Shown here piece by piece: positions 9,774 to 26,741 of a stretch of DNA of 64,000 nt. The notes under the pieces are model-generated. The model saw nothing but the letters and a program-made list of their open reading frames with translations. It did not search any database and was not told the origin of the DNA. The position numbers and the translations under genes are program-made. This DNA comes from Geothrix sp. 21YS21S-2 (GTDB lineage Bacteria > Acidobacteriota > Holophagae > Holophagales > Holophagaceae): the NCBI RefSeq assembly GCF_030846775.1, contig NZ_CP132910.1:4467001-4531000 (forward strand). Reading direction: 5' to 3'. The number at the start of each line of letters is the position of its first letter. Positions within the stretch are counted from its first letter, which is position 1.

Positions 9774-9818
9774 ATTAAGAACCATGAATTGTCAACACCC
9801 TTTTTGGATGTCCGTTCG

Positions 9819-11189
9819 CTACTCGACGTTGAGGGCGGACATCATGGGATCCCAGGGCGGCAGCAGCTCCGCCTGGGTGCCGAAGACGTCCAGCACGGCC
9901 TTGGGCACCACGGAGCGGGGCACCACCACCACCTGCACGAAGTGGTCGAACCAGCCGTCCATCATGGTGTAGTAGCCCTTCTTGCCGCCCTTGTCGCCCC
10001 AGGAGTTCTCCACCAGCCACTTCACCGGCTTGCCGTCCGCCATGTCCACGCCCGTGAAGACCATGTTGTGGTTGGGCACGCTGCGCCGGCTCTCGAAGCA
10101 CTCCCGCCGGTCCATGGCGAAGTCCATGCCGTAGAGGGAGGTGAAGTCGCGCACGCCGGGCATGAGCAGGCCTTCCTCGCGCTGCATGTCCTGGCTCACG
10201 TCGGCGCCGAACCACACCAGGCGGTCGGAGAGGACGCAGGTCTTGGCCGCCTCCTTCAGGACCTCCAGGGGGCAGTTCACGAAGAACATGTTGGGGGCGT
10301 CCAGGAGGGCGCGGTCCAGGTCGATCTCGTACTTCTTCTGGTAGGCCAGGGTGGGGATGGAATAGAGGGCCACGAAGTCGTCCAGGTCGGCGCCGATGGC
10401 CGTCTTGTAGAAGTCCTTGGGAGTCCAGGCCTTGAGGGGGGTCACCTGCTTGTCCTTGGCGACGTGGCGCCAGGTGAACTTCGACGGAGGGACGCCCAGG
10501 TGCATGGCCAGGATGCGGTACACGTCCTTCATGGCCTGCAGCTTGAGGGCCTCCACGGCGGCGGCGTCCTTGGCCGCGCGGATCCGCACGCCCGCCACCT
10601 TCAGGCGCAGGAACAGCACCTGGTTCATGGCCGCGGAATTGGACGAGCTGAAGGTCTCGGGCATCACGTCCTTGGGCACGACCCCGTACTTCTTCACCAG
10701 GTCCACGAAGCCCTGCCAGTTGCCGCCCTCCTGCACGGGGCTGCCCAGGAGGAACTCCACGCGCCGGTCCGTGTGGGCCGCCCCCCGGGTGCGGGCGATG
10801 GCGTCCAGGAAGAGGTTGGCCTTCTCCAGCTTGTCGTAGAAGAAGAGGTAGTTCTGGCTCAGCTCGAGGTTGTCGCAGCCCAGCCTTGAGGCGCCCGTGC
10901 GCCGGAACATGTTCAGGGCGGAGAACATCCAGCAGCGGCCGCTGGCCATCTGGTTGGCCACGGGCTCGTCGGCGATGCGCTTGGTGAAGTGCGCGTCCAC
11001 GGCGGTGATGCGGGACCAGTCCTCGGCCAGCTTGCGGCCGTCGTTCTGGGCCAGGGCGTTCTTCAGGGCGCGGAAGCCGCCGTCCTGGGGACAGGCGGCC
11101 GCGAGCTGGTCGAGGCGCTCGGGCGTGAGGGCCTGCGCCAGCAGGGGCGAGGCGGCGATGAGGAGGGGGAGGCAGAGCCGGGCGAACAT
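9819..11189 (-). CDS. Secreted C1 (bleomycin hydrolase/PepC-type) cysteine peptidase
   Basis: About 456 residues. Signal peptide at residues 1-20, then the papain-fold bleomycin hydrolase family: catalytic Cys in SGRCWMFSALN (near residue 84), His in PNHNMVFTGVD and Asn in LVENSWG near the C-terminus. Typical PepC/bleomycin hydrolases are cytosolic, so the signal peptide is notable and suggests a periplasmic or surface aminopeptidase. The ATG at 11189 is preferred over the upstream GTG at 11195 because CAGGAG then sits 5 nt before the start. It is the only gene in its unit and divergent from menA. Confidence 0.88.
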   Translation of the reverse strand: MFARLCLPLLIAASPLLAQALTPERLDQLAAACPQDGGFRALKNALAQNDGRKLAEDWSRITAVDAHFTKRIADEPVANQMASGRCWMFSALNMFRRTGASRLGCDNLELSQNYLFFYDKLEKANLFLDAIARTRGAAHTDRRVEFLLGSPVQEGGNWQGFVDLVKKYGVVPKDVMPETFSSSNSAAMNQVLFLRLKVAGVRIRAAKDAAAVEALKLQAMKDVYRILAMHLGVPPSKFTWRHVAKDKQVTPLKAWTPKDFYKTAIGADLDDFVALYSIPTLAYQKKYEIDLDRALLDAPNMFFVNCPLEVLKEAAKTCVLSDRLVWFGADVSQDMQREEGLLMPGVRDFTSLYGMDFAMDRRECFESRRSVPNHNMVFTGVDMADGKPVKWLVENSWGDKGGKKGYYTMMDGWFDHFVQVVVVPRSVVPKAVLDVFGTQAELLPPWDPMMSALNVE

Positions 11190-12296: not shown

Positions 12297-14588
12297 ATGC
12301 CCAGTCCCCGCCTTGTTCCCATCCTCGCCGCCACCCTGGGCCTGGCCGTGTCCGCCGAGATCCCCGCGGAGCAGGCCCTGGGCATCTACGGCCAGACGGC
12401 TCCCGCCCACCGGGAACTCTCCCCCCTCTGGGGCATGGTTTCCCTCAAGTCAGGCCTGCTCCGGAACCTGCGCCTGTACGGGGCCTACGGCCCGGCGCCC
12501 CTGGCGGAACTTCCCCGGCACCCCGGCCTCCATGGGGCCAATGACCATCCCCAGGATGCGGTGGCAGGGGTGATCCAGTACCTTTTCCCTTCCCCGGACG
12601 GCGTCAATTTCGTGCCCAACCAGCGCACGAAGGATCCCATCGGGGCGCTGTCCAGGGAGCGCGAGAAGGGACTGCCCAGGATCCTGGCGCTCCTGGACGC
12701 CATCACGTTCCGCAAGGGCTCCATGGCGGACGCCCGCGGCGCCTCCTCCTCCCGGGCCACCGGCTCCCCCGATGAGGCGGAGCGGGACCTTCGCGCCGAC
12801 GTGATACGGATCCTGGGGGGCGGTTCCCCCGATCCCGATTCCGGGTACCACCGGATCCTGGGCTCCTTCGCGACGATGCTCGCCCGGGGGGTGCGCCAGG
12901 AGGTGGCCGATGGCGGCCGCGCCTACCCTCCCCGGGTGGTGGAGATGGCCCTTCTGGGCTATGCCTGGACGGTGGCCGACCACGTGGATGAACTGTACCG
13001 GGCCTTCAGCCCGGGGCTGCTCCTCGGGCCGCCCGAGAGAAGGCCCCAGCCGCCCGCAGGCCAGGCCTACCCCGACGCCCGGTTGCCTGGAGTTCTGGAA
13101 CGCATGGAGGTGCACCGGGCGGGCGGAGGCGAGCCGGTTCTTCCCGATGAGCTCGCGGTGTTCCTGAACGACCAGCGCACCCAGGGACCCCTTCCCGAAC
13201 TCGTCAACTACGGCATGGCCCGCCACGGCGAAGCCCGCTATCCGGACTGCGGGGAAACCTCCCTGCGCAATTTCTTCAACATCGCCTTCACCCATGAGGG
13301 GGTGTTTTCCGAGGGCCGCTTCGCCGCCTTCCTGCACCGCTTCCCGGCTCCCCCCACGGCAAAGCTGATGGAGCTCCAGGCGTTCTACCGGCGGTTCCCC
13401 CGCATCGCCCACCAGACCACCCAGGCGGCCCGGGACGCGTGGAGCGCCATCGTATCGGGCCTCAACCACCCCGGGGATCCCCTGCCCATCGTCTACCGCA
13501 ACGGCACGCACAACCTGAAGGGCGCAGGCCTCAGGAACATGCTGAACCTCATCGCCCACCTGCTGCCCGATCCGCTCCTCAACGGCCCCTGGCAGGGGGG
13601 CCCAGGCCTCGCCCAGGCCACCGGCAAGCTCGATCGCCTGTGCGAGCTGGTGTCGACGGAAGGCCGGACCTTCGCTTGGCAAGCCGTCAAAGGCGGGTGG
13701 GAAGGCATGGATTTCGGGACCCTGGACTTCACCCTCAACCGGGAACCGGGCTTCGCATGGACCTTCCGGCCGGGACACTTCGCCATGCATTCCCTGGTGA
13801 ACCGGAGCCCCGCCTGGGGGCTCCGGCAGATGGAGGTTCCCGCGGATGCCCCCCTGCTGGGGGCCTGGCGCGACCATTTCGTGGGGATCGGGCCGCCCCG
13901 GGAGGCATGGCACCTCTTCGCCACGAATCTCGATTCCCCGGACGTGGCCCTCAATGCCATCCAGTCCATCCTGGACGCCCATTCCGGAACCCTGCTGCCC
14001 ACGATGCTGCTCCTGGTGGAGAAGGTCATCCCCATCGACGCGGATGCCTACGAAGCCCTGGCCGGTGTCCTGCACAACGCCGGGGCGGAGAGGCTGGGCC
14101 CCCCCTGGTACCCCATCCCCTTTGTCCGCGCCCTGCCGCAGGAACAGAAGGCGGCCCTTTTCCTGGCGGCCGACATACCCGGCCAGAGTCCGCAGATGGC
14201 CCTCTGGGTCCCCTTCTGGATCCAGCACGGTCTCGACCCGTCCACGCGGTTCCTTGGCGGCGTCTCCATCCTGGCCTGGTGCGCCGGGAGCGGTTCGCTC
14301 CCCCTGGTCCAGGAGGCCCTTCGGGCGGGTGCGCGGGCGAACGATATGGACGAGAGGGGGCTGACGCCCCTCCTGGGTGTGGTCATGGCCTGGAAGGAAA
14401 ACCCTGTCTTCTCCACCGACGGGCACGCCCTCGTGCAGGTGCTGCTCGACGCGGGAGCGGATCCCCTGCTGGCCGATGGAGGGGGATACGCTCCGCTGGG
14501 CCTGGCCCAGAAGTTGGGGCTGGCCGAATTCGCCGGACAATTCGAGCGGAACTTGATGGAAAAGGCCGAGAGGAAAGGGGCCTTCTGA
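12297..14588 (+). CDS. Large secreted protein of unknown function with ankyrin-like C-terminus
   Basis: A 763-residue protein I do not recognise. Residues 1-20 look like a signal peptide. The central region carries a distinctive YPDCGETSLRNFFNIAF segment (about residues 314-330), which could hold a catalytic or metal-binding Cys/Glu pair, but this is a guess. The last ~110 residues contain two ankyrin-like repeats (DMDERGLTPLLGVVM and ALVQVLLDAGADPLLADGGG). An AT-rich stretch (12270-12285) just upstream probably holds the promoter, and AGAGG precedes the ATG. A broken transposase lies directly downstream, so the gene may be recently acquired. An effector-like or scaffold role is possible but unproven. 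Confidence 0.7.
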   Translation: MPSPRLVPILAATLGLAVSAEIPAEQALGIYGQTAPAHRELSPLWGMVSLKSGLLRNLRLYGAYGPAPLAELPRHPGLHGANDHPQDAVAGVIQYLFPSPDGVNFVPNQRTKDPIGALSREREKGLPRILALLDAITFRKGSMADARGASSSRATGSPDEAERDLRADVIRILGGGSPDPDSGYHRILGSFATMLARGVRQEVADGGRAYPPRVVEMALLGYAWTVADHVDELYRAFSPGLLLGPPERRPQPPAGQAYPDARLPGVLERMEVHRAGGGEPVLPDELAVFLNDQRTQGPLPELVNYGMARHGEARYPDCGETSLRNFFNIAFTHEGVFSEGRFAAFLHRFPAPPTAKLMELQAFYRRFPRIAHQTTQAARDAWSAIVSGLNHPGDPLPIVYRNGTHNLKGAGLRNMLNLIAHLLPDPLLNGPWQGGPGLAQATGKLDRLCELVSTEGRTFAWQAVKGGWEGMDFGTLDFTLNREPGFAWTFRPGHFAMHSLVNRSPAWGLRQMEVPADAPLLGAWRDHFVGIGPPREAWHLFATNLDSPDVALNAIQSILDAHSGTLLPTMLLLVEKVIPIDADAYEALAGVLHNAGAERLGPPWYPIPFVRALPQEQKAALFLAADIPGQSPQMALWVPFWIQHGLDPSTRFLGGVSILAWCAGSGSLPLVQEALRAGARANDMDERGLTPLLGVVMAWKENPVFSTDGHALVQVLLDAGADPLLADGGGYAPLGLAQKLGLAEFAGQFERNLMEKAERKGAF

Positions 14589-15618: not shown

Positions 15619-15891
15619 TTATAGCTCGTTATGCTTTCGCATTTCGCAAAAAGCCTTGTTCGATCCCGCCGGCCATCCCTGGCGCCGAAGGTGCCAGGAG
15701 AGGACGCCTCCACACACGCCCGCGATACCCAGGAACCCCAACCCCAAGCCCCTGGCCCCTAACAGGCACTTCTCCACCCCGAACAGGGCCATGGAGATCA
15801 TGGTGGACCCCGCGAGCCCGTTGAGGAAGGCGGTGGCCAGATCGTTCCGGGGCGCGACCTCGGCGCAGGCGCGCGCCACCGATCCCCACAT
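15619..15891 (-). CDS. Possible small membrane protein or gene remnant
   Basis: A 90-residue reading from ATG 15891. Two hydrophobic segments (about residues 18-45 and 48-70) look like a helical hairpin, and the end ...FCEMRKHNEL runs into AT-rich DNA. The frame also stays open upstream with protein-like sequence (LRAFCRRIRPRAL), so this may be the tail of a longer decayed membrane protein. I do not recognise it. No ribosome binding site stands out. Confidence 0.35.
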   Translation of the reverse strand: MWGSVARACAEVAPRNDLATAFLNGLAGSTMISMALFGVEKCLLGARGLGLGFLGIAGVCGGVLSWHLRRQGWPAGSNKAFCEMRKHNEL

Positions 15892-15968
15892 AAGCGCGCG
15901 GGGGCGGATCCTGCGGCAGAAGGCGCGGAGCACGCCGTCCGGCTCGGGGCGGTAAGGAGGGTCACCCC

Positions 15969-16115
15969 AGCCACGCCATCGTGGAGGCCAGGCAGTTCCT
16001 GGGCTCGGAAGGGCTGCTTTGGACGGAGTACGTGGCGACCTCCCGCCACATGGAGTACATGCTCTGGCCGCGGCTTGCGGCACTGGATGTGAACTTCCGT
16101 CCCCTGGACGATTGA
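15969..16115 (+). pseudogene. Probable 3' gene remnant
   Basis: In this frame 48 codons end at TGA 16113-16115, and the peptide (SHAIVEARQFLG...LWPRLAALDVNFRPLDD) has the composition and ending of a real protein C-terminus, unlike the other frames. There is no start or ribosome binding site nearby. I read it as the tail of a gene whose 5' part has been lost, consistent with the scar just upstream. Function unknown. Confidence 0.3.
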
Positions 16116-16122: not shown

Positions 16123-17397
16123 TCAGGCCGAGGCCGCGTGGAGGGCCCAGGTGAGCGCCATGCAGTCCGCCACGCCGCCCATGGTCAGGTTGTCCCGGCG
16201 GTAGTCCTCGTTCAGGGCCAGCAGGAAGGGCTCGGGATCCCGCCCCATGTCCAGGAGGCCCTGGAGGGCCGCCCCGTCCCGGCGGAGACGCTCGAGGCCC
16301 TCCAGCCCGCAGCGGCGGACGGCGGTGGTGTCCTCCACCGTGCGCATCAGCGTGGCCATGAGGCGGAAGCCCGCCAGGCGCGGCTCCAGGCCGGCCTCCA
16401 GGGCGTCGCGGTAGGCGGGCCAGCCGTGCTCGAACACTGCGGGCAGGCCCTGCAGGGCCTCGGCCTGGATGCCGCCCAGGCCGTGGCGGGCGCGCAGTTC
16501 GGCGCCGATGGTGCCCTGGGGCGGGCAGGCCGAGAAGAACTTCGCGGCCAGGTCCGCGATGGCGCCGCGGAGCTGGGAGATGCGGCCCTTGCACTGGCAG
16601 GCCGCCAGCAGCGTAAGGCCGGACAGGAAGATATAGCCCTTGTGGCCGTTGGTGCCGATCTCCCGCAGCATGCGGTCCTCGGCGTCGCGGCCGGCCTGGT
16701 TGAGTTCGTTCAGGGGCCGCTGCTCGCCGAAGCGCTCCAGCAGCTCCCCGTAGTAGAGGGGCAGGAGGTCCGCCGATGCCCGCATGGCCTCGAAGGTGAG
16801 GTCCGGGTGCGAGCCGCAGTCGCGGCGGTCCACGAGGCCGGGCTTGGGGGTCAGCTCCAGCTCGCGCAGGGCGCCCCGGTGGAGGGTGGCGGCGAGTGTC
16901 TCCGGCAGGAGCCGCTGGGGGGTGCTGTGCTCGTGGAGCAGGGCGTCCACCTTGGCCAGGAGCTCGGCGGCGGAGTGGCGCCCGGCCCGGATGCACTCCC
17001 GGGCGGGTTCCGCGCAGAGGAGGCAGGGGCGCTGGGGCAGGCCCAGGGAGGCCCGGTCCACCTGCGTGCCGTCGGGGCGGTAGACGTCGATGTCCAGGAT
17101 CCGGCCGGAGGGGGTAAGGCCCTCCAGGGCCACGGCGGCGGCCTTGACCTGGGCGGGGTCGCCCGCGGAAAACGCGATGTGGAAGGGACCCAGGGCATCG
17201 AAACCCGAATGGGCGGCCACGGCCTCCAGACCGTCCAGGGCCCCCTGCGCCAGCCGGGAGAGGCCCGGGCGGTGCTTGGCGGGGCCGGGGACGTTGCAGC
17301 TGACGAACAGGATGGAGGCGGCGTCCCCGCACTGGGCCAGGGCCCGGCGGAGCTCGCGCTCCCGTTCGTCGCGGGCGGCGAGGAAGACGCTATTCAT
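16123..17397 (-). CDS. citXG: Fused CitX-CitG: citrate lyase holo-ACP synthase / triphosphoribosyl-dephospho-CoA synthase
   Basis: A 424-residue fusion. The N-terminal ~165 residues are CitX-like (apo-citrate lyase phosphoribosyl-dephospho-CoA transferase; GRILDIDVY and RPCLLC are typical). The C-terminal ~250 residues are CitG-like, with ELTPKPGLVDRRDCGSH, GTNGHKGYIF and a final LTMGGVADCMALT. The two activities make and attach the 2'-(5''-triphosphoribosyl)-3'-dephospho-CoA prosthetic group to CitD. CitX and CitG are separate in many bacteria and fused in some, such as Haemophilus. Last gene of the cit operon, overlapping citF by 8 nt. Confidence 0.92.
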   Translation of the reverse strand: MNSVFLAARDERERELRRALAQCGDAASILFVSCNVPGPAKHRPGLSRLAQGALDGLEAVAAHSGFDALGPFHIAFSAGDPAQVKAAAVALEGLTPSGRILDIDVYRPDGTQVDRASLGLPQRPCLLCAEPARECIRAGRHSAAELLAKVDALLHEHSTPQRLLPETLAATLHRGALRELELTPKPGLVDRRDCGSHPDLTFEAMRASADLLPLYYGELLERFGEQRPLNELNQAGRDAEDRMLREIGTNGHKGYIFLSGLTLLAACQCKGRISQLRGAIADLAAKFFSACPPQGTIGAELRARHGLGGIQAEALQGLPAVFEHGWPAYRDALEAGLEPRLAGFRLMATLMRTVEDTTAVRRCGLEGLERLRRDGAALQGLLDMGRDPEPFLLALNEDYRRDNLTMGGVADCMALTWALHAASA

Positions 17398-18928
17398 GGA
17401 CCTTCCTGACCACGTCGATGATGGAGCCGTCCCGGTACTCGATGAGCGCCACGACCTCGTCCTCGAACTCGATGGGCCTCGGCTTGCCGGTGACCCGGGT
17501 GATCTCCTCGTGGAACTGGCGGATGTCCTTCACCGGGAGGTTGCGGCGCTTGAGTTCGGCCACCAGGTCGGGGTGCTTGCTGGAGACGCAGATGCCGCGC
17601 TCGGTGACGATGACGTCCACGGTCTCCCCGGGGGTGGTGACGGTGGTGACGGCGTCCCGCACCACCGGGAGCCGGCCGCGGATGGAGGGGGCCACCACGA
17701 TGGCGAGCTTGGCGCCCGCGGCCACGTCGCAGTGGCCGCCGGTGTTGTGCAGGAGGTAGCCGCTGGACTCGGTGTTGACGTTGACGTTGAAGTCCACGTC
17801 CACCTCGGTGGCGCCCAGGATGACGCAGTCGAGCATGTTGGCCACGCACCCTCGGTTGAAGGGGCTGGCGTAGAGGTCGGCGGAGATCTCACGGTGGCAG
17901 GGGTTGCGCCGCATGGAGTCCACGGCCCGGTTGTCGAAGCACTGCACGTCGAAGAGCGTCTCGAAGTAGCCCTCCTCCAGCATGTCGACGAAGTAGCCCG
18001 TGATGCCGCCGCAGCCGAAGCTGCCCTTGACCTTGTTCTCGGCCATGAGGCGGCGCACGTTGTCGGCCACGGCCAGGGACGTGCCGCCGGCGCCGGTCTG
18101 GAAGGAGAAGCCGTCCTTGAGCAGGCCCGAGGCGTGGATGACCTCGGAGGCGTACTTGGCGATGAGCAGGCCCGCGGGGTCGCGGGTGACGCGGGTGGTG
18201 GTGGAGACGATCTTCTTGGGGTCGCCCAGGGACTCGATCTGCACCACGTAGTCCACGTCGGACTGGGAGATGCTGATGGGGGCCGCGGGGTAGCGCACCA
18301 GGTTGTCGGTGACGGCCACCACCTTCTTGGCGTAGCGGGCGTCGGTGTAGGCGTAGCCCAGGGAGCCGCAGGCCGACGGCCCGTGCACGCCGTTCATGTT
18401 GCCGGTGACGTCGCAGCAGGGGGCCGCGATGAAGGCGGCGTCCACTTCCACCTCGCCCGTGACCAGGGACCGGGCCCGGCCGCCGTGGCTCCGCACGATG
18501 ATGTCGCACTTCAGCTCGCCCTTGCTCACCATCTGGGCGATGAGGCCGTTGACGCCGGTCTCGATGCGGGTGATGACGCCCTTGCGGATGTAGGGGATGA
18601 TCTCCGCGTGCACGTCGTGCACGGAGCTGGAGGCGATGCCCATGTCCATGAGACCCATGGCGTCCAGTTCCTTCACCAGCAGGTTCAGCAGCAGGTCGCC
18701 GTTGCGCAGGTGGTGGTGGGTGGAGATGTTCATGCCGTCCCGGAGCTCGCACTTCTCCAGCGCGGCCCGCAGGCTGGGCAGGAGCTTGGAGTCGGAGGGG
18801 TGGCGGCGCACCAGGGGCCGCGTGGCCCGCAGGACCTCGGGCTTCTTGTTCCAGGGATCGACGTAGGGGTCGAGGGTGCGGCCCCTCCACAGGGCCGGGA
18901 TCTCCCGTCCGAGGCTATTTTTCGCCAT
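17390..18928 (-). CDS. citF: Citrate lyase alpha subunit (citrate CoA-transferase)
   Basis: A 512-residue CitF. It starts with NSLGREIPALW and keeps the family core (LRNGD, GKSFGCGG-like SFGCGGITGYF, the CoA-transferase glutamate region and a long conserved C-terminal half with GICVSSKHPDL and EFEDEVVALIEYRDGSIIDVV). It exchanges the acetyl group on CitD for a citryl group in the cytoplasmic citrate lyase complex. Length is normal. It overlaps citE by 14 nt and citXG by 8 nt, indicating translational coupling. Confidence 0.96.
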   Translation of the reverse strand: MAKNSLGREIPALWRGRTLDPYVDPWNKKPEVLRATRPLVRRHPSDSKLLPSLRAALEKCELRDGMNISTHHHLRNGDLLLNLLVKELDAMGLMDMGIASSSVHDVHAEIIPYIRKGVITRIETGVNGLIAQMVSKGELKCDIIVRSHGGRARSLVTGEVEVDAAFIAAPCCDVTGNMNGVHGPSACGSLGYAYTDARYAKKVVAVTDNLVRYPAAPISISQSDVDYVVQIESLGDPKKIVSTTTRVTRDPAGLLIAKYASEVIHASGLLKDGFSFQTGAGGTSLAVADNVRRLMAENKVKGSFGCGGITGYFVDMLEEGYFETLFDVQCFDNRAVDSMRRNPCHREISADLYASPFNRGCVANMLDCVILGATEVDVDFNVNVNTESSGYLLHNTGGHCDVAAGAKLAIVVAPSIRGRLPVVRDAVTTVTTPGETVDVIVTERGICVSSKHPDLVAELKRRNLPVKDIRQFHEEITRVTGKPRPIEFEDEVVALIEYRDGSIIDVVRKVHE

Positions 18929-19826
18929 GGATCACCTCGTCGGTCAGGTCAAAGTCGATCATCCCGAAGGCGATGGCCGTCTTCAGGACGCGGGCGGCGC
19001 GGGTGACGACGGGCGCGTCGACCATCCTGCCCTTGAGCGAGATCACGCCGGTGCCCATCTCCCGGGCGCGCTTGATGGCGTCCATCACTTCCAGGGCGTG
19101 CTCGATCTCCTTGGCCGCGGGGCGGAACACCTCGTGGATGATCTCGATCTGCCTGGGGTTCACCAGGGACTTGCCCGTGAAGCCCAGGCGCTTGATGAGG
19201 GCCGTCTCGGCGCGCAGCGCCTCCATGTCGTTGACGTCGGGGAAGATGGTGTCGATGACCTGGAGGCCGGCGGCCTTGGCGGCCCACACGATCTGGGTGC
19301 GGGCGGAGAAGAGCTCCTCGCCGGTCTTGGTGCGGTCGATCTCCATGGAGGCCGTGAAGTCCTCGGCGCCGAAGGCCAGGGCCACCAGGCGCGGAGAGCT
19401 GACCGCGGTCAGCACGCTGTTGAGCACCCCCTGGGCGCTCTCGATGGAGGGGATGATCTTGAAGTGGCCGATCTCCAGGCCCAGGTGCTCCTCCTGCTCG
19501 GTGAGCAGGGTGTCGAGCTTCTCCACCACCTCGGGGTTGTCGGCCTTGGGCAGGCGGATCCCGTCCGGCAGGGCAGGGAGGATCTCCCGCAGGTCGTCCA
19601 GCGCGTAGGGCGTGTCCAGCCCGTTGATCCGGACGAACATCTCCTTGTTGCGGTCGGTGTAGGACCGCAGGAAGTTGCGGGCCAGGAGCCTCGCGGCGTC
19701 CTTCTCCTGGAGGGGGACGGCGTCCTCCAGGTCGATCATGACGACGTCGGCCTCGAAGACCGGGATGTTCTGCAGCATCCCGGGCATGTTGCCGGGGACG
19801 TACAGCAGGGAACGGCGGAGCTTCAT
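18915..19826 (-). CDS. citE: Citrate lyase beta subunit (citryl-ACP lyase)
   Basis: A 303-residue CitE of the HpcH/HpaI aldolase superfamily. LRRSLLYVPGN at the N-terminus, VVMIDLEDAVPLQEKD (metal-binding Asp/Glu), then VRINGLDTPY and LALAFGAEDFTASM are the standard signatures. It cleaves citryl-ACP to oxaloacetate and acetyl-ACP with Mg2+. Full length with no obvious defects. It lies between the PPC-domain gene and citF in the operon. Confidence 0.96.
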   Translation of the reverse strand: MKLRRSLLYVPGNMPGMLQNIPVFEADVVMIDLEDAVPLQEKDAARLLARNFLRSYTDRNKEMFVRINGLDTPYALDDLREILPALPDGIRLPKADNPEVVEKLDTLLTEQEEHLGLEIGHFKIIPSIESAQGVLNSVLTAVSSPRLVALAFGAEDFTASMEIDRTKTGEELFSARTQIVWAAKAAGLQVIDTIFPDVNDMEALRAETALIKRLGFTGKSLVNPRQIEIIHEVFRPAAKEIEHALEVMDAIKRAREMGTGVISLKGRMVDAPVVTRAARVLKTAIAFGMIDFDLTDEVIHGEK

Positions 19827-19833
19827 GGATCCC

Positions 19834-20304
19834 CTACCTTTCTTCGAAGAAGAGGGTGTCGACGCCGCTCGAGGTGGAGTGGTAGCGCTCGATGCCCGTC
19901 ACCAGGTACTCGGCCAGGACGATTTCGCAGGTGGCGAACACCTCGGCGTCCACCAGCTGGCCCCCCACCACCTCGCCGCCGGCCTTGGAGGCCAGGATGT
20001 AGAACTGGGCGCCCAGCTTCTTGCCGGCGCCCGGGGCGATGTTGCCCGAGAGCCCCAGCATCTCCAGGGGGCCTTCCACCCGGTGCTTGCGGGTGCGGGG
20101 TTCGGTCAGGGGCAGGTGGGCCCCGGTCTGGATGTCCCTGAACTCCACGTCACGCACCGAACCGATGGCCGAGACCATGGACGCGAAGGTGATGTTCTGG
20201 GAACTGCAGAACTCCAGGAGGGTGGGGACGATGCGCGCACCCGGCTGGATCTTGATGATGAAGCGCCGGCCTGTGACGCACTCGCGGGACCATACCTTGT
20301 CCAT
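19834..20304 (-). CDS. PPC (DUF296)-domain protein in the cit operon
   Basis: A 156-residue single PPC/DUF296 domain protein. The N-terminal FIIKIQPGARIVPTLLEFCS, the ASMVSAIGSVRDVEF strand and the LGLSGNIAPG...LGAQFYILASKAGGEVVGGQL region fit the bacterial PPC trimer fold. Such proteins lack the AT-hook of plant homologues, and their function in bacteria is mostly unknown; some bind metals or small ligands. The frame is open far upstream, but the ATG at 20304 sits 2 nt after the citD stop and gives the usual family length. Its place between citD and citE implies a role in citrate metabolism or its regulation. Confidence 0.8.
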   Translation of the reverse strand: MDKVWSRECVTGRRFIIKIQPGARIVPTLLEFCSSQNITFASMVSAIGSVRDVEFRDIQTGAHLPLTEPRTRKHRVEGPLEMLGLSGNIAPGAGKKLGAQFYILASKAGGEVVGGQLVDAEVFATCEIVLAEYLVTGIERYHSTSSGVDTLFFEER

Positions 20305-20306
20305 GA

Positions 20307-20570
20307 CTACTCCTGGGAAGCTCTGTGAATGGCGGTTTCCACCCGGGCGGCGATGGCGTAGTCCAGGGCGCCGCGGTCCGAGACGCGGACGTGGCCGGCG
20401 GCCACGCCCAGCTCCTGCAGGGTCGCCTCGATGCGGGCCCGGATCAGGTGCTCGAACTGCTTCTTCACGGTGGATTCGATGTCGATCTGGAGGGTTTCGG
20501 CGGGCTCGACCACGACCATGAGGTCGCTGGACTGCATGGTGCCCGCGGTGGACTTGCGTCGGATCTGCAT
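20307..20570 (-). CDS. citD: Citrate lyase gamma subunit (acyl carrier protein)
   Basis: An 87-residue acyl carrier. AGTMQSSDLMVVVEP aligns with the CitD prosthetic-group site, placing the attachment serine at Ser14. The rest (TLQIDIESTVKKQF, IRARIEATLQELGV, RGALDYAIAARVETAI) is the conserved helical/beta core. It carries the acetyl/citryl thioester during the lyase cycle and is modified by CitXG. Nearly contiguous with citC upstream and the PPC gene downstream. Confidence 0.95.
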   Translation of the reverse strand: MQIRRKSTAGTMQSSDLMVVVEPAETLQIDIESTVKKQFEHLIRARIEATLQELGVAAGHVRVSDRGALDYAIAARVETAIHRASQE

Positions 20571-20573
20571 GGA

Positions 20574-21608
20574 CTAGGCTCCCTGGAGGCGCCCGGCGAT
20601 GGGCCGGGCTTCGTCGGATCGGAGGAACTGGAGGGTGGAAGGGGGCACCAGGGACGCCAGGGTCCCGAAGTCCCCGGCGGCGAAGGCGGCGCGCACCCGG
20701 GTCGCGCTGACCGGGGCGCCGGCGGCCTCGAGGCGGGCCACTTCCGTGACGGCGACGCCGGCGGGGGGCAGGATCTCGGCCATGGCGGCGTTGTAGGCCC
20801 GGGTCGCGGGGCAGAGGGGCTCGGTCCCGGCGAAGCGGCGGACGACGTGGAAAGCCGGGGCGATGCGCCGGGCGAAGAGATCCAGGTCCAGGCGCATCTG
20901 GGCCTGGGCGGCCTCGTCCTCGCGCTTGAGGAAGTAGGCGGGGAAGGTCCCGGCGGACACCGCGTAGCGGGAGGTCTCCAGGACGGTGACGTTGGGCAGG
21001 TGGGCCGTGGCCTCCCGGGCCAGGCGCAGGCGCGCCGCGAAGGGGAAGACGGAGCAGTCCTCGCTCACCACGAAGAGGAGGAGCCGGTCCACCTCCTTCG
21101 CGGCCCGTTCCGCCAGGTGGAGGTGGCCCAGGGTGAAGGGGTTGCCGTTGAGGACGATGGCGCCGTTGCGGCCCGGCGCGGCGGGATGGGAGGCCAGGTA
21201 GGCCTCCAGGCCCGGCCCGTGCTCCAGGAGCGCCGCCGTGCCGTGGGTGGCCAGGAGCCGGAAGTTCAGGGCCTCGAAGGTCCCGGTGTTCTGGGGCCGG
21301 GTGAAGAGGAAGAGGGTCCCGTGGCCCGCCTCCATGCCCGAGAGGACGAGCCGGGTCACCAGGGCGCCCAGGGTGTCCGTGCCCTGGAACTCGGGAGCTA
21401 TGGCCAGCATCTTGAGGACATAGCCCTTCCTGGCGCCGCATGCCGCGAGGCGCCCGCCGTCGTACCAGCCCACCAGGTCATCCACCCCGGGTTCAAAACG
21501 AAGGCCCTGGGACTCGATGAGTTCCCGGGCCTCGCGTTCCGTGGGCTGGTCGAACAAGACGTGCTCCGTGAAGGGTCCGCCCGCAGTATAGGACCGGGGG
21601 CCTTTCAA
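20574..21608 (-). CDS. citC: [Citrate (pro-3S)-lyase] ligase
   Basis: A 344-residue CitC. An N-terminal GNAT-like region (residues ~10-120, LKMLAIAPEFQGTDTLGALV) is followed by the nucleotidyltransferase domain, with IVLNGNPFTLGHLHLAERAA as the HxGH-type ATP-binding motif. It acetylates the thiol of the CitD prosthetic group using ATP and acetate, activating the lyase. First gene of the operon citC-citD-PPC-citE-citF-citXG. No citrate transporter or CitAB sensor is nearby, so uptake must be encoded elsewhere, or the pathway handles internal citrate. Confidence 0.93.
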   Translation of the reverse strand: MKGPRSYTAGGPFTEHVLFDQPTEREARELIESQGLRFEPGVDDLVGWYDGGRLAACGARKGYVLKMLAIAPEFQGTDTLGALVTRLVLSGMEAGHGTLFLFTRPQNTGTFEALNFRLLATHGTAALLEHGPGLEAYLASHPAAPGRNGAIVLNGNPFTLGHLHLAERAAKEVDRLLLFVVSEDCSVFPFAARLRLAREATAHLPNVTVLETSRYAVSAGTFPAYFLKREDEAAQAQMRLDLDLFARRIAPAFHVVRRFAGTEPLCPATRAYNAAMAEILPPAGVAVTEVARLEAAGAPVSATRVRAAFAAGDFGTLASLVPPSTLQFLRSDEARPIAGRLQGA

Positions 21609-21623: not shown

Positions 21624-21654
21624 CTATTAGTGAGGACCGTCACGGAGCGGTCAA
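21624..21654 (-). promoter_or_regulatory. Possible cit operon promoter
   Basis: On the minus strand TTGACC (complement of 21649-21654) and TAATAG (complement of 21624-21629) are 19 bp apart, directly upstream of citC. The spacer is longer than ideal and the -35 box overlaps the mscL stop codon, so this is only a candidate. Confidence 0.3.
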
Positions 21655-22043
21655 TCGACCTGGCTAGTGCAGAATTTGCAACGTTTGGCTGCGAGGGGAA
21701 TCGTCTCCAGGCACTCGGGGCAGGTCTTGGTGGAGGGCGCCGCGGGCTCCTCCTTCTTCTTCATGAGGGTGCCCACCAGCTTCACCAGGAAGAGGAAGAC
21801 GACCCCGGCGATGATGAGGAAGTTCAGGGTCGCGCCCAGCACCACCCCGATGCGCAGCTTGCCCACGGCCCACTGCTCCCAGACCATGTTGGCCGGCAGC
21901 ACGTAGCTCACCAGCGGCATGACGATGCCGCTCACGAAGGCCTTGACGATCTCCCCGAAGGCGCCGCCGACCACCACGGCCACGGCCAGGTCCACCACGT
22001 TTCCCTTGGCCACGAAGGCCTTGAACTCCTGGATGAGGGACAT
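21651..22043 (-). CDS. mscL: Large-conductance mechanosensitive channel with C-terminal zinc ribbon
   Basis: A 130-residue MscL. IQEFKAFVAKGNVVDLAVAV is the N-terminal helix and TM1 pore segment; TM2 (FLIIAGVVFLFLVKLV) follows, and residues 1-100 match standard MscL. Instead of the usual charged helical bundle, the tail ends in a CPECLETIPLAAKRCKFC zinc-ribbon-like motif (two CxxC pairs). It releases solutes on osmotic downshock. The tail could bind zinc or alter gating. The gene is between argR and the cit operon on the same strand. Confidence 0.94.
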   Translation of the reverse strand: MSLIQEFKAFVAKGNVVDLAVAVVVGGAFGEIVKAFVSGIVMPLVSYVLPANMVWEQWAVGKLRIGVVLGATLNFLIIAGVVFLFLVKLVGTLMKKKEEPAAPSTKTCPECLETIPLAAKRCKFCTSQVD

Positions 22044-22082: not shown

Positions 22083-22493
22083 TCAGATGCCTCGAATCAG
22101 ACGTTCCCGGATTTCGAGTTCCAGTCTATCAAGCAAGCTGCTGTTCACGGGCGCCGCGAAGATCGTATCGTCCCCGGCCAGGGTGCCGGCCAGGGAGGGC
22201 AGGCCGGCCTGGTCCAGGGCCAGGGCCATGGCCTGGGCGTACCCAGGGGTGGTCTTGAGGATGAGCAGGGTGGGGGGAACCTTCTGGAGCGTGTAGGGGT
22301 GGGAGGGGGGCAGGGCGGGCAGGGCGCGGCGGTAGCGGCCCTCCTCCTTGCGGATGTTCAGCTTCTTCATGTGCCGGGAGAGGGTGGAGAGCGTCAGGTC
22401 GAAGCCCTCCCTGCGGAGCAGCTCCAGGAGATCCCCCTGTTCGGTGATTTCCAGGCGGGAGAGATGGCGGAGAATGGCTTCGTCCAAGTTCAT
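22083..22493 (-). CDS. argR: Arginine repressor
   Basis: About 136 residues from ATG 22493. The N-terminal winged helix is LDEAILRHLSRLEITEQGDLLELL with TLSTLSRHMKKLNIRKEEG as recognition helix and wing. The C-terminal oligomerisation and arginine-binding domain has LAGTLAGDDTIFAAP, the signature GTiAGdDTifv of ArgR/AhrC. Other starts exist at 22508 (ATG) and 22520 (TTG), but they overlap a repeated ATTTGCA block and lack support. It is divergent from the arginine operon, whose promoter region carries six ATTTGCA elements, so ArgR is the likely regulator of both. Confidence 0.9.
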   Translation of the reverse strand: MNLDEAILRHLSRLEITEQGDLLELLRREGFDLTLSTLSRHMKKLNIRKEEGRYRRALPALPPSHPYTLQKVPPTLLILKTTPGYAQAMALALDQAGLPSLAGTLAGDDTIFAAPVNSSLLDRLELEIRERLIRGI

Positions 22494-22500
22494 GGGGCTA

Positions 22501-22668
22501 ATTTGCATCGATTTGCACAAATTTGCAAGCAGTCTTGTTTAACTCATAATCATAAATTTACAGTCCTGTCGTAGCTTTTTCGCTTGACCCCCCATACGGG
22601 GACGCGCACAATTTGCATTACATGACCGGTATTTCCGTGTTTTTGCATCCAATGACCGCAAATTTGCA
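22501..22668. promoter_or_regulatory. Array of ATTTGCA elements between argR and argD
   Basis: ATTTGCA occurs at 22501-22507, 22511-22517, 22521-22527, 22611-22617 and 22662-22668, with TTTTGCA at 22641-22647. The first three are exactly 10 bp apart. The later ones are offset by 90, 30 and 21 bp, so nearly all face the same side of the helix. Bases 22658-22667 form the perfect palindrome GCAAATTTGC. One copy overlaps the proposed argD -10 box and three lie just before argR. The arrangement fits a cooperative operator for ArgR. Identity of the binding protein is inferred. Confidence 0.7.
22584..22612 (+). promoter_or_regulatory. Predicted arginine operon promoter
   Basis: TTGACC (22584-22589), a 17-bp spacer, then CACAAT (22607-22612). 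An ATTTGCA element overlaps the -10 box, ideal for repression. Transcription would begin near 22619-22622, right at an ATG, so the mRNA may be leaderless. Confidence 0.5.
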
Positions 22669-23824
22669 GCCCCCCGCCCTCCTCCCCACCTACACCCCCT
22701 TCCCCTTCCCCCTGCTCCGCGGCGAACGCGACCGGGTCTTCGATCCCCTGGGAAGGAGCTACTGGGACTTCTACGGCGGGCACTGCGTGGCCAGCACCGG
22801 CCACTCCCACCCCCTGGTGGCCGAGGCCATCGCGGTCCAGGCCCGGGAGCTGATCTTCTACAGCACCGCCGCGGAACTGCCCGTGCGGTCCCGGGCGGCC
22901 AAGGCCCTTCTGGACTTCGCGGAGTCCGGCCGGGACGCGGGCATGGCCTCCATCTTCTTCTGCAACAGCGGCGCCGAGGCCAACGAGAATGCCCTGAAGA
23001 TGGCCTGCCGGCTCACCGGGAGGCACAAGTTCGCGGCCTTCCAGGGCGGCTGGCACGGGCGCTCCACCCTGGCCCTGTCCGTCACCGACGACCCCGCCAT
23101 CACGGATCCCTACGCGCCCCTCCTGGCGCCCTGCCTGCGCCTGCCCTGGAACGACGTGGAGGCCCTGGAGGCCGCCGACTTCTCGGACGTGGCCGGCGTG
23201 ATCATGGAGCCCATCCAGAGCATGTCGGGCATCCGGCCCGCCACCGCCCCCTTCATGATCAAGGTGCGGGAGAAGACGAAGGCCGCCGGCGCCATGCTCA
23301 TCTACGACGAGGTCCAGACCGGCATGGGCCGCCTGGGGCACCCCTTCGCCGCGGGCCTCCACGGCGTCCGCCCCGACATGATCACCTCCGCCAAGGGCCT
23401 CGCCTCGGGCGTGCCCATGGGGGCGCTGCTCCTGTCGGCCGAGGCCGCCGCCTCCGTCAGGCCCGGGGACCTGGGCAGCACCTTCGGCGGCGGGCCCCTG
23501 GCCTGCGCCGCGCTCCTGGCCACCCTCACGGTGATCCGCCAGGAGGGCCTCCTGCAGAACGTCTTCGTGCGCGAGCAGGAGATCCGCGAGGCGCTCGCGG
23601 GCACCTGCGTCACGGAGATCCGCGGTTCGGGCCTGCTCCTGGGCCTGGTGGTGCCGGGCCGGGCCAAGCAGCTCAAGGCCCACCTCCAGGACCGGCACAT
23701 CCTCGTGGGCGGCAGCGGCGATCCCGACGCCCTGCGCCTCATGCCCCCCCTCAACGTGACCCGGGCCGCGGTCGACGCCCTGGCCGAAGCCGTCCGCACC
23801 TTCCCCGCTGGAGATTCCAAATGA
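22622..23824 (+). CDS. argD: Acetylornithine aminotransferase
   Basis: A 400-residue class III PLP aminotransferase. LLPTYTPFPFPLLRGERDRV and YWDFYGGHCVASTGHSHP are typical ArgD. The PLP site includes NSGAEANENALKMA, IYDEVQTGMGR and the lysine in SAKGLASGVPMGA. It converts N-acetylglutamate semialdehyde to N-acetylornithine. No ribosome binding site precedes either ATG at 22622 or 22652; I chose 22622 because the predicted promoter would start transcription there. First gene of argD-argF'-argB-argE-argH-argG-(P-loop)-argC, overlapping argF' by 4 nt. Confidence 0.9.
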   Translation: MTGISVFLHPMTANLQPPALLPTYTPFPFPLLRGERDRVFDPLGRSYWDFYGGHCVASTGHSHPLVAEAIAVQARELIFYSTAAELPVRSRAAKALLDFAESGRDAGMASIFFCNSGAEANENALKMACRLTGRHKFAAFQGGWHGRSTLALSVTDDPAITDPYAPLLAPCLRLPWNDVEALEAADFSDVAGVIMEPIQSMSGIRPATAPFMIKVREKTKAAGAMLIYDEVQTGMGRLGHPFAAGLHGVRPDMITSAKGLASGVPMGALLLSAEAAASVRPGDLGSTFGGGPLACAALLATLTVIRQEGLLQNVFVREQEIREALAGTCVTEIRGSGLLLGLVVPGRAKQLKAHLQDRHILVGGSGDPDALRLMPPLNVTRAAVDALAEAVRTFPAGDSK

Positions 23825-24813
23825 GACACGCCACCGGCATCAGCGATTTCGGCATCGAGGGCCTGGAGGAGATCCTCGCCCGCGCCATCCAGTGGAAGGC
23901 GGGAACGCATCCGAAGCACCTCGTGGACCGGATCCTCGGCATGGTGTTCTTCAACCCCAGCCTGCGCACCCGCGCCTCCTTCGAGGCCGTCATGGCCCGG
24001 GGCGGCGGCTCGTCCATCGTCCTGGAAGTGGGCAACGGCGTATGGAAGCTGGAGGACCGCATCGGCGCCATCATGGACGGGGACCGGGCCGAGCACATCA
24101 AGGAGGCCGCGCCCGTCCTGGCGCGCTACGTGGACCTGCTCGCCGTGCGCACCTTCGCCGCGGGCGTCAGCGACGCGGAGGACCACGCGGATCCCGTCAT
24201 GAACGGCTTCCGCAACCACTCCACCGTGCCCACCCTCAGCATGGAGAGCGCCCGGGAGCACCCCTGCCAGGGCCTCGCCGACCTCATGACGGCCCGGGAG
24301 ACCTTCGGCTCCACCAGGGGCCTGCCCGTGACCCTCACCTGGGCCCCCCACATCAAGCCGCTGCCCAAGGCCGTGCCCAACAGCTTCCTGCTCACCGCAG
24401 CGGCGGCCGGCTGCGAGGTGCGCGTGGCCCACCCCGAGGGCTTCGAGCTCCAGGGCGAGGTCCTTGCCCAGGCCCAGGCCCTGGCCAAGGGCGCGGGCGG
24501 CAGCGTCTCCTTCACGAAGGACCAGGGCGAGGCCGCAGCCGGCAGCCGAGTGGTCTACGCCAAGGCCTGGGGCCCGTCCACGGAGGGCGGCCTGAAGGCG
24601 GAGGCCGTCAAGGACCACCCCGACTGGATCTGCTCCCCCGACCTGATGCGCAAGGCCGCCCAGGACGCGATCTTCATGCACTGCCTTCCCGTGCGCCGCA
24701 ACGTCGAAGTGGCCGACGGCGTCCTGGACGGCCCCTGGAGCCGGGTCGTGGACGAGGCGGAGAACCGCTTCCACGTGCAGCGGTCCCTGGTCCAGTGGCT
24801 TCTGGAGGCCTAG
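23821..24813 (+). CDS. argF': N-acetylornithine (or N-succinylornithine) carbamoyltransferase
   Basis: A 330-residue transcarbamylase. FFNPSLRTRASFEAVM is the carbamoyl-phosphate loop and HCLPVRRN the ornithine-side motif. Sequence around VWKLEDRIGAIMDGDRAEHI and MESAREHPCQ matches the acetyl/succinyl-ornithine subfamily of Xanthomonas and Bacteroides, not ordinary ArgF. By eye, the Glu in AEHI aligns with Glu92 of Xanthomonas AOTCase, the residue known to favour acetyl over succinyl substrates. The organism therefore likely carbamoylates N-acetylornithine and deacetylates later. Specificity is inferred. Same operon, 3 nt before argB. Confidence 0.88.
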   Translation: MRHATGISDFGIEGLEEILARAIQWKAGTHPKHLVDRILGMVFFNPSLRTRASFEAVMARGGGSSIVLEVGNGVWKLEDRIGAIMDGDRAEHIKEAAPVLARYVDLLAVRTFAAGVSDAEDHADPVMNGFRNHSTVPTLSMESAREHPCQGLADLMTARETFGSTRGLPVTLTWAPHIKPLPKAVPNSFLLTAAAAGCEVRVAHPEGFELQGEVLAQAQALAKGAGGSVSFTKDQGEAAAGSRVVYAKAWGPSTEGGLKAEAVKDHPDWICSPDLMRKAAQDAIFMHCLPVRRNVEVADGVLDGPWSRVVDEAENRFHVQRSLVQWLLEA

Positions 24814-24816
24814 ACA

Positions 24817-25692
24817 ATGGTACGTTCCTCGAATCCCTTCGACGCCCTGCACAACGCCGCCAAGTACGTGCGGAAGTTCCGCGGCAAGCCCTTCGTGGTC
24901 AAGCTCGGCGGCGAGATCCTGGAGGATCCCGCCCTGCGCAAGGCCGTCTGCACCCAGCTGGCCCTGCTGTGGAGCTTCTCCATCCCCCTGGTGATCGTCC
25001 ACGGCGGCGGCGCCGGCCTGGACGCGCTCTGCAACGAGCTGGGCCTGGAGACCACCAAGGTCGCCGGCCGGCGCGTGACCTCGGCCCCCGTGCTGGACGC
25101 CGCCAAGATGGCCTTCAAGGGCCGCATCCAGATGGACCTCCTCGCTTCGCTGGAGGTCGCCGGGCTTCCCGCGGTGGGCCTCTCCGGCCAGGACGCGGGC
25201 CTCGTGAAGTCCCACAAGCGGCCCGTGGGCGAGGTGGACTACGGGCTCGTGGGCGACGTGGACACCGTGGACCCCTCGGTCCTCCGGCACCTCCTGGACG
25301 GCGGCTACGTCCCCGTGGTGGCGCCCTTCTCAGCCACGGCCGAGGGCCAGGTGCTCAACACCAACGCCGACACCATCGCCGCCGAGATCGCCGCGGCCCT
25401 GGGGGTGGAGAAGCTGTTCTTCATCCTGAAGGTCCCCGGGCTCCTGCGGGACGTGGCCGTGCCCAGCAGCCTGGTGCCCCTGGCCGACCTGCAGACCCTC
25501 AAGGAGCTGGAAGGCGCCATCAAGGACGGCATGAAGCCCAAGATCACCGCGGCCCGGCGGGCCCTGGAGGGCGGCGTGAAGAGCGTCCACCTGGTTTCGG
25601 GCAGCAGGCCCGACGCCATCCTGGCCGAGGTGTTCACCAACGAGGGCAGCGGCACCATGCTGGTCGCCGACCGGAACGAGGTGGGCGCATGA
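24817..25692 (+). CDS. argB: Acetylglutamate kinase
   Basis: A 291-residue amino-acid kinase: FVVKLGGEILED and IVIVHGGGAGLDALC form the phosphate-binding loops, followed by LLASLEVAGLPAVGLSGQDAG, LNTNADTIAAEIA and the C-terminal KITAARRALEGGVKSVHLVSG. It phosphorylates N-acetylglutamate. There is no fused acetyltransferase domain, so it cannot supply the first step of the pathway by itself. The stop overlaps the argE start (ATGA). Confidence 0.93.
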   Translation: MVRSSNPFDALHNAAKYVRKFRGKPFVVKLGGEILEDPALRKAVCTQLALLWSFSIPLVIVHGGGAGLDALCNELGLETTKVAGRRVTSAPVLDAAKMAFKGRIQMDLLASLEVAGLPAVGLSGQDAGLVKSHKRPVGEVDYGLVGDVDTVDPSVLRHLLDGGYVPVVAPFSATAEGQVLNTNADTIAAEIAAALGVEKLFFILKVPGLLRDVAVPSSLVPLADLQTLKELEGAIKDGMKPKITAARRALEGGVKSVHLVSGSRPDAILAEVFTNEGSGTMLVADRNEVGA

Positions 25693-26741
25693 TGGCGCCC
25701 GCGGCCCTCCTGGAATCCCTGGTGGCCATTCCCAGCGTGTCCCACGCCGAACAGGCCGTGGCGGACCACGTCGCGGCCCTGCTGGGCGCCGAGGGCTTCG
25801 AGGTGCGCCGCACGGGCAACAGCCTCTGGTTCGAGGTGGGCACCGAAGGTCCCCGCATCCTCTTCGCCAGCCACCTGGACACCGTGCCCCCCTGTGACGG
25901 CTGGAGCAGCGATCCCTTCACCCCGTCCTGGAACGGCGACCGCCTCACCGGGCTGGGCGCCAACGACGCCAAGGGCTGCGTGGCGGCCATGATCCTGGCG
26001 GCCGTGGAGCTGCGCGGCCTCAAGGGCGCCCGCGCCGTGTTCGCCTTCACCGAGGGCGAGGAGGTGGGCGGCAAGGGCATCCGGGAGGTGCTGCCGGACC
26101 TGGGCAGGCTGGACGCCGCCGTGGTGGGGGAGCCCACCGGCCTGGAGATCTGCGCCGCCCAGCGGGGCATGCTCATCCTGCGCTGCACCGCCCGGGGCGA
26201 GGCCGCCCACGTGGCCCACAGCCCCCTGGGCGAGAACGCCATCCACAAGGCGGCCCGCGACATCCAGAAGCTCGCCGCCATGACCTTCGAGCCCCACCCC
26301 CTCCTGGGCGAGACCCGCGCCCAGGTGACCCAGGTGCAGGGGGGCAGGGCCCGCAACCAGGTTCCCGACAGCTGCGAGTTCTTCGTGGACCTGCGCACCA
26401 CCCCCAACCTGGACCACGCCCTCACCGCCGAGCGCATCGCGCTGGTGCTGGAGAGCGAAGTGGCCGTGCACTCCATGCGCTACGAGGCCGTGGCCACCGG
26501 CCTGGACGAGCCGGTGGTGAAGGCGGCCCTGGCCGCCTCGGGCCGCAAGGCGCCCCGAGGCTCCGCCACGGCTTCCGACTGGGCCTTCCTGGCCCACCTC
26601 CCCGCCGTGAAGGCGGGCCCCGGCGACACGCACCGAAGCCACCGCCCCGACGAATGGATCTCCCTGTCCGAGCTGGAAGGCGGCATCGCGTTCTACGCGG
26701 CTTTGGCCCGGGAATACGCCAAGGAGGCCTGCCGTGTCTAA
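25689..26741 (+). CDS. argE: M20 deacetylase, ArgE/LysK-like (N-acetylcitrulline or N-acetylornithine)
   Basis: A 350-residue M20 metallopeptidase. Metal ligands are in FASHLDTVPP, LGANDAKGC and FTEGEEVGG, with a later HRSHRPDEW supplying the last histidine. The dimerisation domain lies between. In pathways using an acetylornithine carbamoyltransferase, the deacetylase acts on N-acetylcitrulline, which is what operon context predicts here. Sequence similarity is closest to the ArgE/DapE/LysK group, which cannot be split by eye. The frame is open far upstream within argF', but the ATGA overlap with argB fixes the start at 25689. Confidence 0.85.
   Translation: MMAPAALLESLVAIPSVSHAEQAVADHVAALLGAEGFEVRRTGNSLWFEVGTEGPRILFASHLDTVPPCDGWSSDPFTPSWNGDRLTGLGANDAKGCVAAMILAAVELRGLKGARAVFAFTEGEEVGGKGIREVLPDLGRLDAAVVGEPTGLEICAAQRGMLILRCTARGEAAHVAHSPLGENAIHKAARDIQKLAAMTFEPHPLLGETRAQVTQVQGGRARNQVPDSCEFFVDLRTTPNLDHALTAERIALVLESEVAVHSMRYEAVATGLDEPVVKAALAASGRKAPRGSATASDWAFLAHLPAVKAGPGDTHRSHRPDEWISLSELEGGIAFYAALAREYAKEACRV

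Follow-up and report, generated by a model that had tools for sequence, protein, structure and literature searches.

A PPC/DUF296 gene between citD and citE accompanies one lineage of bacterial citrate lyase

Introduction

Citrate lyase has long been studied as an enzyme of the alpha-beta-gamma type. In Escherichia coli K-12, the genes citCDEFXG (NC_000913.3) share one direction and citD overlaps citE by 4 nucleotides (nt), leaving nothing between them. Here, we describe a cit operon of the same gene order and direction, in which an additional gene is found exactly at this junction. The operon lies in a window, that is the whole stretch of 64,000 nt that was analysed, from Geothrix sp. 21YS21S-2 (NZ_CP132910.1, positions 4,467,001 to 4,531,000 of the forward strand). 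It runs as citC-citD-PPC-citE-citF-citXG on the minus strand at 16123-21608 with all six genes present, CitDEF being clustered with CitC, CitX and CitG as in a citrate lyase operon. The additional gene (19834-20304) encodes a PPC/DUF296 protein of 156 residues, which together with its counterparts in other cit operons is called cit-PPC below.

For Geobacter bemidjiensis, the genome paper gives a citCDEFXG cluster with seven locus tags (Gbem_3862-3856) for six named genes and proposes citrate lyase for carbon dioxide fixation (PMC2996986); with such a role, control of the lyase would matter in this organism. The passages on this cluster make no mention of a PPC/DUF296 protein, and the term DUF296 gave no match in the text of that paper (PMC2996986). 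Searches of the open-licence literature returned no description of a PPC gene in a citrate lyase operon. In contrast to the enzyme itself, this gene is apparently undescribed in the searched literature.

We propose that cit-PPC serves one bacterial citrate lyase lineage as a dedicated accessory subunit, a proposal to which we give an even chance. It is based on a single gain without any loss seen, a tight coupling to the neighbouring subunit genes and a common travel with the operon. A regulator belonging to the host would fit these features less well than a component dedicated to the lyase.

Distribution of the PPC gene

An earlier note on this DNA had implied that the arrangement is rare. 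It turned out to be standard across a lineage that includes Geomonas, Citrifermentans, Malonomonas and Propionivibrio. With three PPC proteins as queries against 84,980 species genomes, 37 loci were obtained. The PPC gene stands immediately ahead of citE-citF in all 37 of them and citD immediately ahead of PPC in 36, so that the order citD-PPC-citE-citF, whose survey the note had suggested, is nearly universal among these loci. The exception is a metagenome-assembled genome (MAG) labelled Eisenbacteria (L045:8001-8477), which has no citC or citD ahead of PPC, carries its citD on another contig and retains PPC-citE-citF-citX-citG. Hosts of cit-PPC include Geomonas, Citrifermentans bremense, Malonomonas rubra, Geoalkalibacter, Propionivibrio dicarboxylicus, other Rhodocyclaceae-like MAGs and Holophagaceae. 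Nor is the gene missing from the cit operon of close relatives, which by the terms of the note would have refuted its reading: a genome of the same genus (L003) and one of another genus of the family (L004) both have citC-citD-PPC-citE-citF.

Furthermore, a survey without PPC as bait was performed with the CitF profile PF04223 (E <=1e-60) on 195 genomes of Desulfuromonadia, the class of Geomonas. CitF was present in 42 of these genomes (identities of surveyed loci are tblastn identities to the window proteins). The PPC gene was found in all 37 genomes with a CitF 65-73% identical to that of the window and in none of the five with a divergent CitF (39-43% identity). Among 396 genomes of Acidobacteriota, a cit-type PPC (E <=1e-50) occurs in three, all Holophagaceae (the window's own genome, one of the same genus and one of the same family) and all with a close CitF and the same gene order; 60 of the 396 genomes lie above the CitF cut-off and 20 CitF loci were fetched, so that absence elsewhere rests on the PPC search. 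One other acidobacterial genome (G193) harbors a CitF above 550 bits that forms a separate lineage at 50% identity and is not accompanied by a PPC gene. CitF was detected in three of 300 Burkholderiales genomes, where PPC is present in P. dicarboxylicus, the centre of this search, and absent from the other two. Five of 329 Pseudomonadota genomes have CitF, namely P. dicarboxylicus with PPC and four classical ones (five loci) without it. The combined listing comprises 80 loci with and 27 without PPC, some of them from one genome.

On viral contigs and plasmids no cit-PPC was found. A fusion of PPC to CitD or CitE was not noticed in the loci that were read, although no systematic fusion search was made. 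In the 5.25-Mb single-contig genome of the window, cit-PPC is the sole PF03479 match. P. dicarboxylicus encodes a second, non-cit PF03479 protein elsewhere (L082), and nine other tested genomes had the cit copy only.

Phylogeny of CitF

The CitF trees were built from distinct sequences only, leaving out near-duplicates and CitFs below 450 amino acids (aa). In the tree of 89 sequences, which includes E. coli and classical CitFs, the 61 PPC-bearing sequences all lie on one side of one branch with an SH-aLRT support of 99, and the presence of PPC requires one label change compared to a mean of 24 after shuffling. A tree of 83 rows without E. coli and five classical sequences is concordant. The trees contain some weakly supported forks and a few long outgroup branches. 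No loss of PPC was seen within the clade of 61, and PPC entered the cit operon by a single gain.

This clade spans Acidobacteriota, Desulfuromonadia and Rhodocyclaceae, and the CitFs of Rhodocyclaceae are nested among those of Desulfuromonadia. On this basis, the operon seems to have been transferred between phyla together with its PPC gene. Two loci carry record labels that conflict with the CitF data, L037 ('Deltaproteobacteria') and L041 ('Bacillota'); CitF places both among Holophagaceae, and the labels are probably wrong.

The absence of loss also bears on the possibility that cit-PPC is a ligand-sensing switch, which protects the cell from a futile cycle of the lyase with citrate synthase and is not a constitutive part of the complex. 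Operon structure and co-occurrence would apply equally to such a sensor. Acetolactate decarboxylase, to which the PPC fold is related, contains a ligand pocket. For G. bemidjiensis, citrate synthases are described beside the cit cluster (PMC2996986). However, no loss is seen across 61 distinct lyases of the clade in several phyla. Host-specific regulators are typically lost or replaced more often. We therefore regard a sensor as distinctly improbable.

Organization of the operon

The earlier note had placed the PPC gene between citD and citE with gaps of 2 and 7 nt, and the coordinates agree: PPC starts 2 nt beyond the end of citD and ends 7 nt ahead of citE. This tight arrangement is general. 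In all 47 loci measured, PPC and citE are -8 to +18 nt apart. Between citD and PPC, the distance stays within -4 to +24 nt in 45 of 46 loci and reaches 86 nt in the remaining one. For both distances, starts were picked by script and a few loci come from one genome. Spacing of this kind is usual for translationally coupled subunits.

With this coupling, a mere passenger gene, linked by chance and without a role in the lyase, becomes the least credible explanation and retains hardly any probability. A single origin would suit a passenger, and nothing further does. Against it stand the 61 lyases without loss, the purifying selection described below, the tight coupling itself and the linkage to citE, which was retained even where citD had moved.

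All genes of the window's operon are encoded on the minus strand. At its head, citC (20574-21608, with a listed TTG start that is predicted) encodes the citrate lyase ligase (PF08218, 1.2e-57; TIGR00124, 233 bits, under the cut-off of 262). The acyl carrier or gamma subunit of 87 aa is encoded by citD (20307-20570; PF06857, 6.3e-28; TIGR01608, 95.7 bits, above the cut-off of 63.5). PPC itself matches PF03479 (4.7e-20; 72.5 bits, above the cut-off of 25). It is followed by citE (18915-19826) for the beta subunit of 303 aa (PF03328, 1.7e-58; TIGR01588, 339.8 bits, under the cut-off of 443.4) and citF (17390-18928) for the alpha subunit of 512 aa (PF04223, 7.7e-170; TIGR01584, 631 bits, above the cut-off of 501). 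CitE and citF overlap by 14 nt and citF and citXG by 8 nt, and all junctions comprise a few bases, 14 at most. In terms of the NCBIfam equivalog cut-offs, CitD and CitF score above, while the CitC, CitE, CitX domain and CitG models score below; for CitC, CitE and the CitX domain this was an early hint of a divergent lineage.

The last gene, citXG (16123-17397, 424 aa), carries PF03802 (residues 5-156) and PF01874 (residues 171-420) on a single open reading frame (ORF), which bears out the CitXG fusion named by the earlier note and assigns holo-acyl-carrier-protein synthase and triphosphoribosyl-dephospho-CoA synthase to one product. The fusion is in frame in the acidobacterial loci L036, L037, L038, L040 and L041 (citXG of L035 is ended by the contig edge), and the genes are separate elsewhere in the set. 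It is a trait separate from PPC and confined to the acidobacterial loci of this set.

The cit-PPC protein and its metal site

The PPC protein of the window has a mass of 17.0 kDa and an isoelectric point (pI) of 6.3. Its AlphaFold2 model has a predicted local distance difference test score (pLDDT) of 86.8, with residues 59-64 under 50. The top structure matches of this model are PPC structures with Z scores of 16-20, led by 2dt4 (Z 19.9) and 2h6l AF0104 (Z 19.1), the latter being also the best sequence match (1.4e-9 alone, 6.3e-19 by profile). Fold and family cut-off together assign the protein to PPC/DUF296.

The alignment revealed a loop specific to cit-PPCs at residues 58-74 (20083-20133, minus strand), which contains I58, G61, A62, P65, R70 and H74 and exceeds that of non-cit PPCs by six residues. 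For comparison, ten non-cit PPCs of the phylum (L005-L014) were used, with L082, also non-cit, excluded; counts on 61 distinct cit-PPCs refer to a 62-row alignment minus the non-cit row L135. All six loop residues are retained in 60 of the 61 cit-PPCs, and P65 sits in a six-residue insertion that is missing from all ten non-cit proteins. Cit and non-cit PPCs have G12, G22, G48, G87, N88, G115, E127 and R140 in common. In contrast, E8, R13, R14, I58, G61, A62, P65, R70, H74, F123, E132, G137 and S143 are specific to cit-PPCs and rare or absent in the ten non-cit PPCs.

The compared non-cit PPCs possess a His-x-His...His triad. In the PPC of the window it is replaced by Q100, Y102 and Q116 (19957-20007, minus strand; spacing 2 and 14). 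The triad is complete in 50 of the 61 cit-PPCs. In five, a Rhodocyclaceae-type group, the third ligand is Gln. Six more, from Holophagaceae and near relatives and including the window, no longer have the first and third ligands at least. Judging from the triad, the ancestral site would have bound metal, and cit-PPC perhaps descends from a metal-binding and possibly catalytic PPC. The metal-less protein is nevertheless under purifying selection, with dN/dS values of 0.097 (L036/L037) and 0.167 (window/L035). Since the protein was kept after loss of the triad, its role in Holophagaceae would be structural or regulatory rather than metal catalysis.

These data also weigh on the possibility that PPC is a metal-dependent enzyme acting on an intermediate or product of the lyase, either as acetyl-CitD thioesterase/deacetylase or as oxaloacetate decarboxylase, with the copy of the window as a pseudoenzyme. 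Acetolactate decarboxylases, which appear among the lower structure matches (Z 7.7-10.1), share the fold, the zinc-containing PTD012 resembles it weakly (Z 5.4), and the triad is retained in most cit-PPCs. Furthermore, a citrate lyase deacetylase activity (EC 3.1.2.16) is known, from a cited title, in Rhodopseudomonas gelatinosa and R. palustris; in a search of open-licence literature on citrate lyase and Rubrivivax, no title on the identity of the deacetylase appeared. However, the ligands are lost in two groups, yet gene, position and loop persist, and likeness of fold is no proof of activity. The metal ligands of acetolactate decarboxylase are likewise not found in the window protein, as the His triad is absent. 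An oxaloacetate decarboxylase role is weakened by this ligand loss, and Malonomonas has a separate set of carboxyltransferase, biotin carrier and OAD-beta genes upstream, which may serve this or another substrate. Overall, an enzymatic role of this kind is unlikely, though it deserves consideration.

A narrower version would be a four-component lyase, in which a PPC metal centre similar to that of acetolactate decarboxylase acts on the acyl-carrier thioester or oxaloacetate and the Holophagaceae copy is a structural pseudoenzyme. Here, cit-PPC could be the gene behind the citrate lyase deacetylase activity. We consider this version a slim prospect; if true, bacterial PPC proteins would gain a defined role within an enzyme complex.

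The ends of CitE and CitD

The last 11 residues of CitE (18918-18950, minus strand) form a C-terminal tail that is conserved across the PPC-bearing clade and absent in E. coli CitE. Counted from a K-[MIL]-[VI]-D motif, the end comprises 37 residues in 55 of 55 CitEs of the clade that have the motif. Four of the 59 CitEs lack it, one being the Arg variant of the window with an end of equal length. In E. coli, the end has 26 residues and is therefore about 11 shorter. The C-terminus of CitD, in turn, is shorter in the PPC clade than in E. coli. Tail and short CitD coincide with PPC, but on a single branch, and are thus suggestive only. The PPC-less CitE of L034 also has a 37-residue end, which differs in sequence.

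Neither this tail nor the loop of the PPC protein that accompany the gene, nor the loss of the metal ligands in the window, had been mentioned in the earlier note.

Flanking genes and upstream region

Among the scanned flank ORFs of the window, neither a citrate transporter nor a two-component system was found, in line with the earlier note, which saw no citrate transporter or CitAB nearby. Pfam assigned the flank products MscL, ArgR, aminotransferase, carbamoyltransferase, UbiA, PrcB_C and di-haem peroxidase, and the ORFs 12297-14588, 9789-10889, 7318-8517 and 15619-16083 gave no Pfam match. The broad CitMHS family is matched five times elsewhere in the genome and the 2HCT family not at all. 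The mscL gene (21651-22043), whose product has a C-terminal UPF0547 match, shares its direction with citC and lies 42 nt ahead of the start of that gene. An arginine-biosynthesis-like stretch flanks the operon at 22083-26741 with ArgR, a class-III aminotransferase and a carbamoyltransferase, its other members being assigned by ORF reading only.

The upstream genes differ between hosts: a CitMHS-family transporter and a porin in P. dicarboxylicus, carboxyltransferase, biotin carrier and OAD-beta subunit in M. rubra, and glycosyltransferases in Geomonas. Some loci thus seem to be built for citrate use and others appear neutral.

A promoter scan detected no sigma-70-like promoter between mscL and citC. 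In the loci L042-L051, a GGTATAC...GTTAC/GGTTT-type element with GTATAC-like half sites is present about 100 nt or less before the script-chosen citC start. This GTATAC-type element is kept in Geomonas and relatives without a tie to PPC, and is perhaps an operator.

Such an element would suit cit-PPC as a DNA-binding regulator of the cit operon, and several PPCs are labelled 'putative DNA-binding protein' in the PDB. For LmiA, a DUF296 protein of enterohaemorrhagic E. coli reported as a transcription regulator, promoter binding is described by electrophoretic mobility shift assay, chromatin immunoprecipitation and footprinting (PMC7667037). However, cit-PPCs are acidic (pI 5.1-6.9 in 25 proteins), which is a weak hint, and the gene is placed between two subunit genes and moves with the operon across phyla. 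The element was seen among close relatives only. For these reasons, transcriptional control by cit-PPC is very unlikely.

Discussion

The data favour cit-PPC as a dedicated accessory subunit of the lyase, which would probably be constitutive. The earlier note had suggested that the protein senses a ligand or assists lyase assembly; this stands in its wider sense, a protein dedicated to the lyase, given the strict co-occurrence, the coupling to citD and citE and the restriction to one clade, rather than in either specific function. Mechanistically, PPC would be produced in step with CitD and CitE through the tight gene coupling. It would then probably dock where CitE and CitD lie in the complex, via the loop 58-74 and the other cit-specific residues, and perhaps meet the extra tail of CitE. 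In this position, it would help to hold the acyl-carrier/lyase assembly together, to mature it or to gate it. In Holophagaceae, where the metal site is gone, it would serve structure or regulation. Association with CitDEF, its stoichiometry, the contact to the CitE tail and an effect on activity are what we would infer from sequence.

Several points weigh against an accessory subunit. The support is genomic, and all correlations stem from one gain, so that tail and loop could each be a trait of the clade with no relation between them. The complete triad in most members would suit a catalytic or sensing role there, and a DUF296 protein of another organism is reported as DNA-binding (PMC7667037). 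In support of the subunit, PPC distances over 33 loci correlate best with those of CitE (0.82, partial 0.386), followed by CitF (0.79), with CitX lowest (0.64), but in the absence of a proper null this is a pointer only. The CitE model, with a moderate pLDDT of 75.7, says little on the order of the tail.

Nevertheless, an ever-present and coupled gene would mean that the complex, maturation or control of the lyase in this lineage has an additional piece, for which no assay turned up in the searched literature, and bacterial PPC/DUF296 proteins would gain a concrete and testable function. That one branch has lost the metal site provides a natural experiment to separate structural from catalytic roles.

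Comparison with known systems

Divergent relatives are PPC-less CitF loci of Acidobacteriota and Desulfuromonadia, in which CitD and CitE are fused to a protein of about 400 aa, with PF06857 and PF03328 on one ORF where scanned (L135:15688-16914, L125:5498-6718, L134:3737-4954; also L033, L034, L123, L124, L126 and L127). In the examined stretches around them, citC, citX and citG gave no match. Neighbours are fumarase-type and Fe-S/cytochrome b genes (L124, L125) and an aconitase-family gene (L135). These loci may encode a different acyl-lyase, e.g., citramalate lyase.

CitF, CitE and CitD of E. coli are true homologues of the window proteins (44, 41 and 40% identity). The E. coli operon differs from that of the window by its separate citX and citG, by the adjoining citT and dpiBA, by the missing tail of its CitE and by the longer C-terminus of its CitD. 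In the Citrifermentans bremense locus L044, PPC is the seventh gene of the cit cluster. Taken together with the seven tags for six names in G. bemidjiensis, the seventh tag there is very likely the PPC gene.

On the protein level, acetolactate decarboxylase and PTD012 have a related fold, but are larger and only 9-14% identical to the window PPC. For LmiA, the authors propose zinc binding by His 85, 87 and 101 (PMC7667037). This histidine spacing equals that of the cit-PPC triad, a likeness taken from the published description, and the passages on LmiA do not describe it in a cit operon (PMC7667037). The archaeal and bacterial PPC/DUF296 structures (2h6l AF0104, 2dt4, 2hx0, 2nmu, 2p6y, 3htn, 3hwu) have the fold of the window PPC. 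Compared to these known PPCs, the window protein has given up the His triad, and the cit-PPC clade as a whole is set apart by its six-residue loop insertion.

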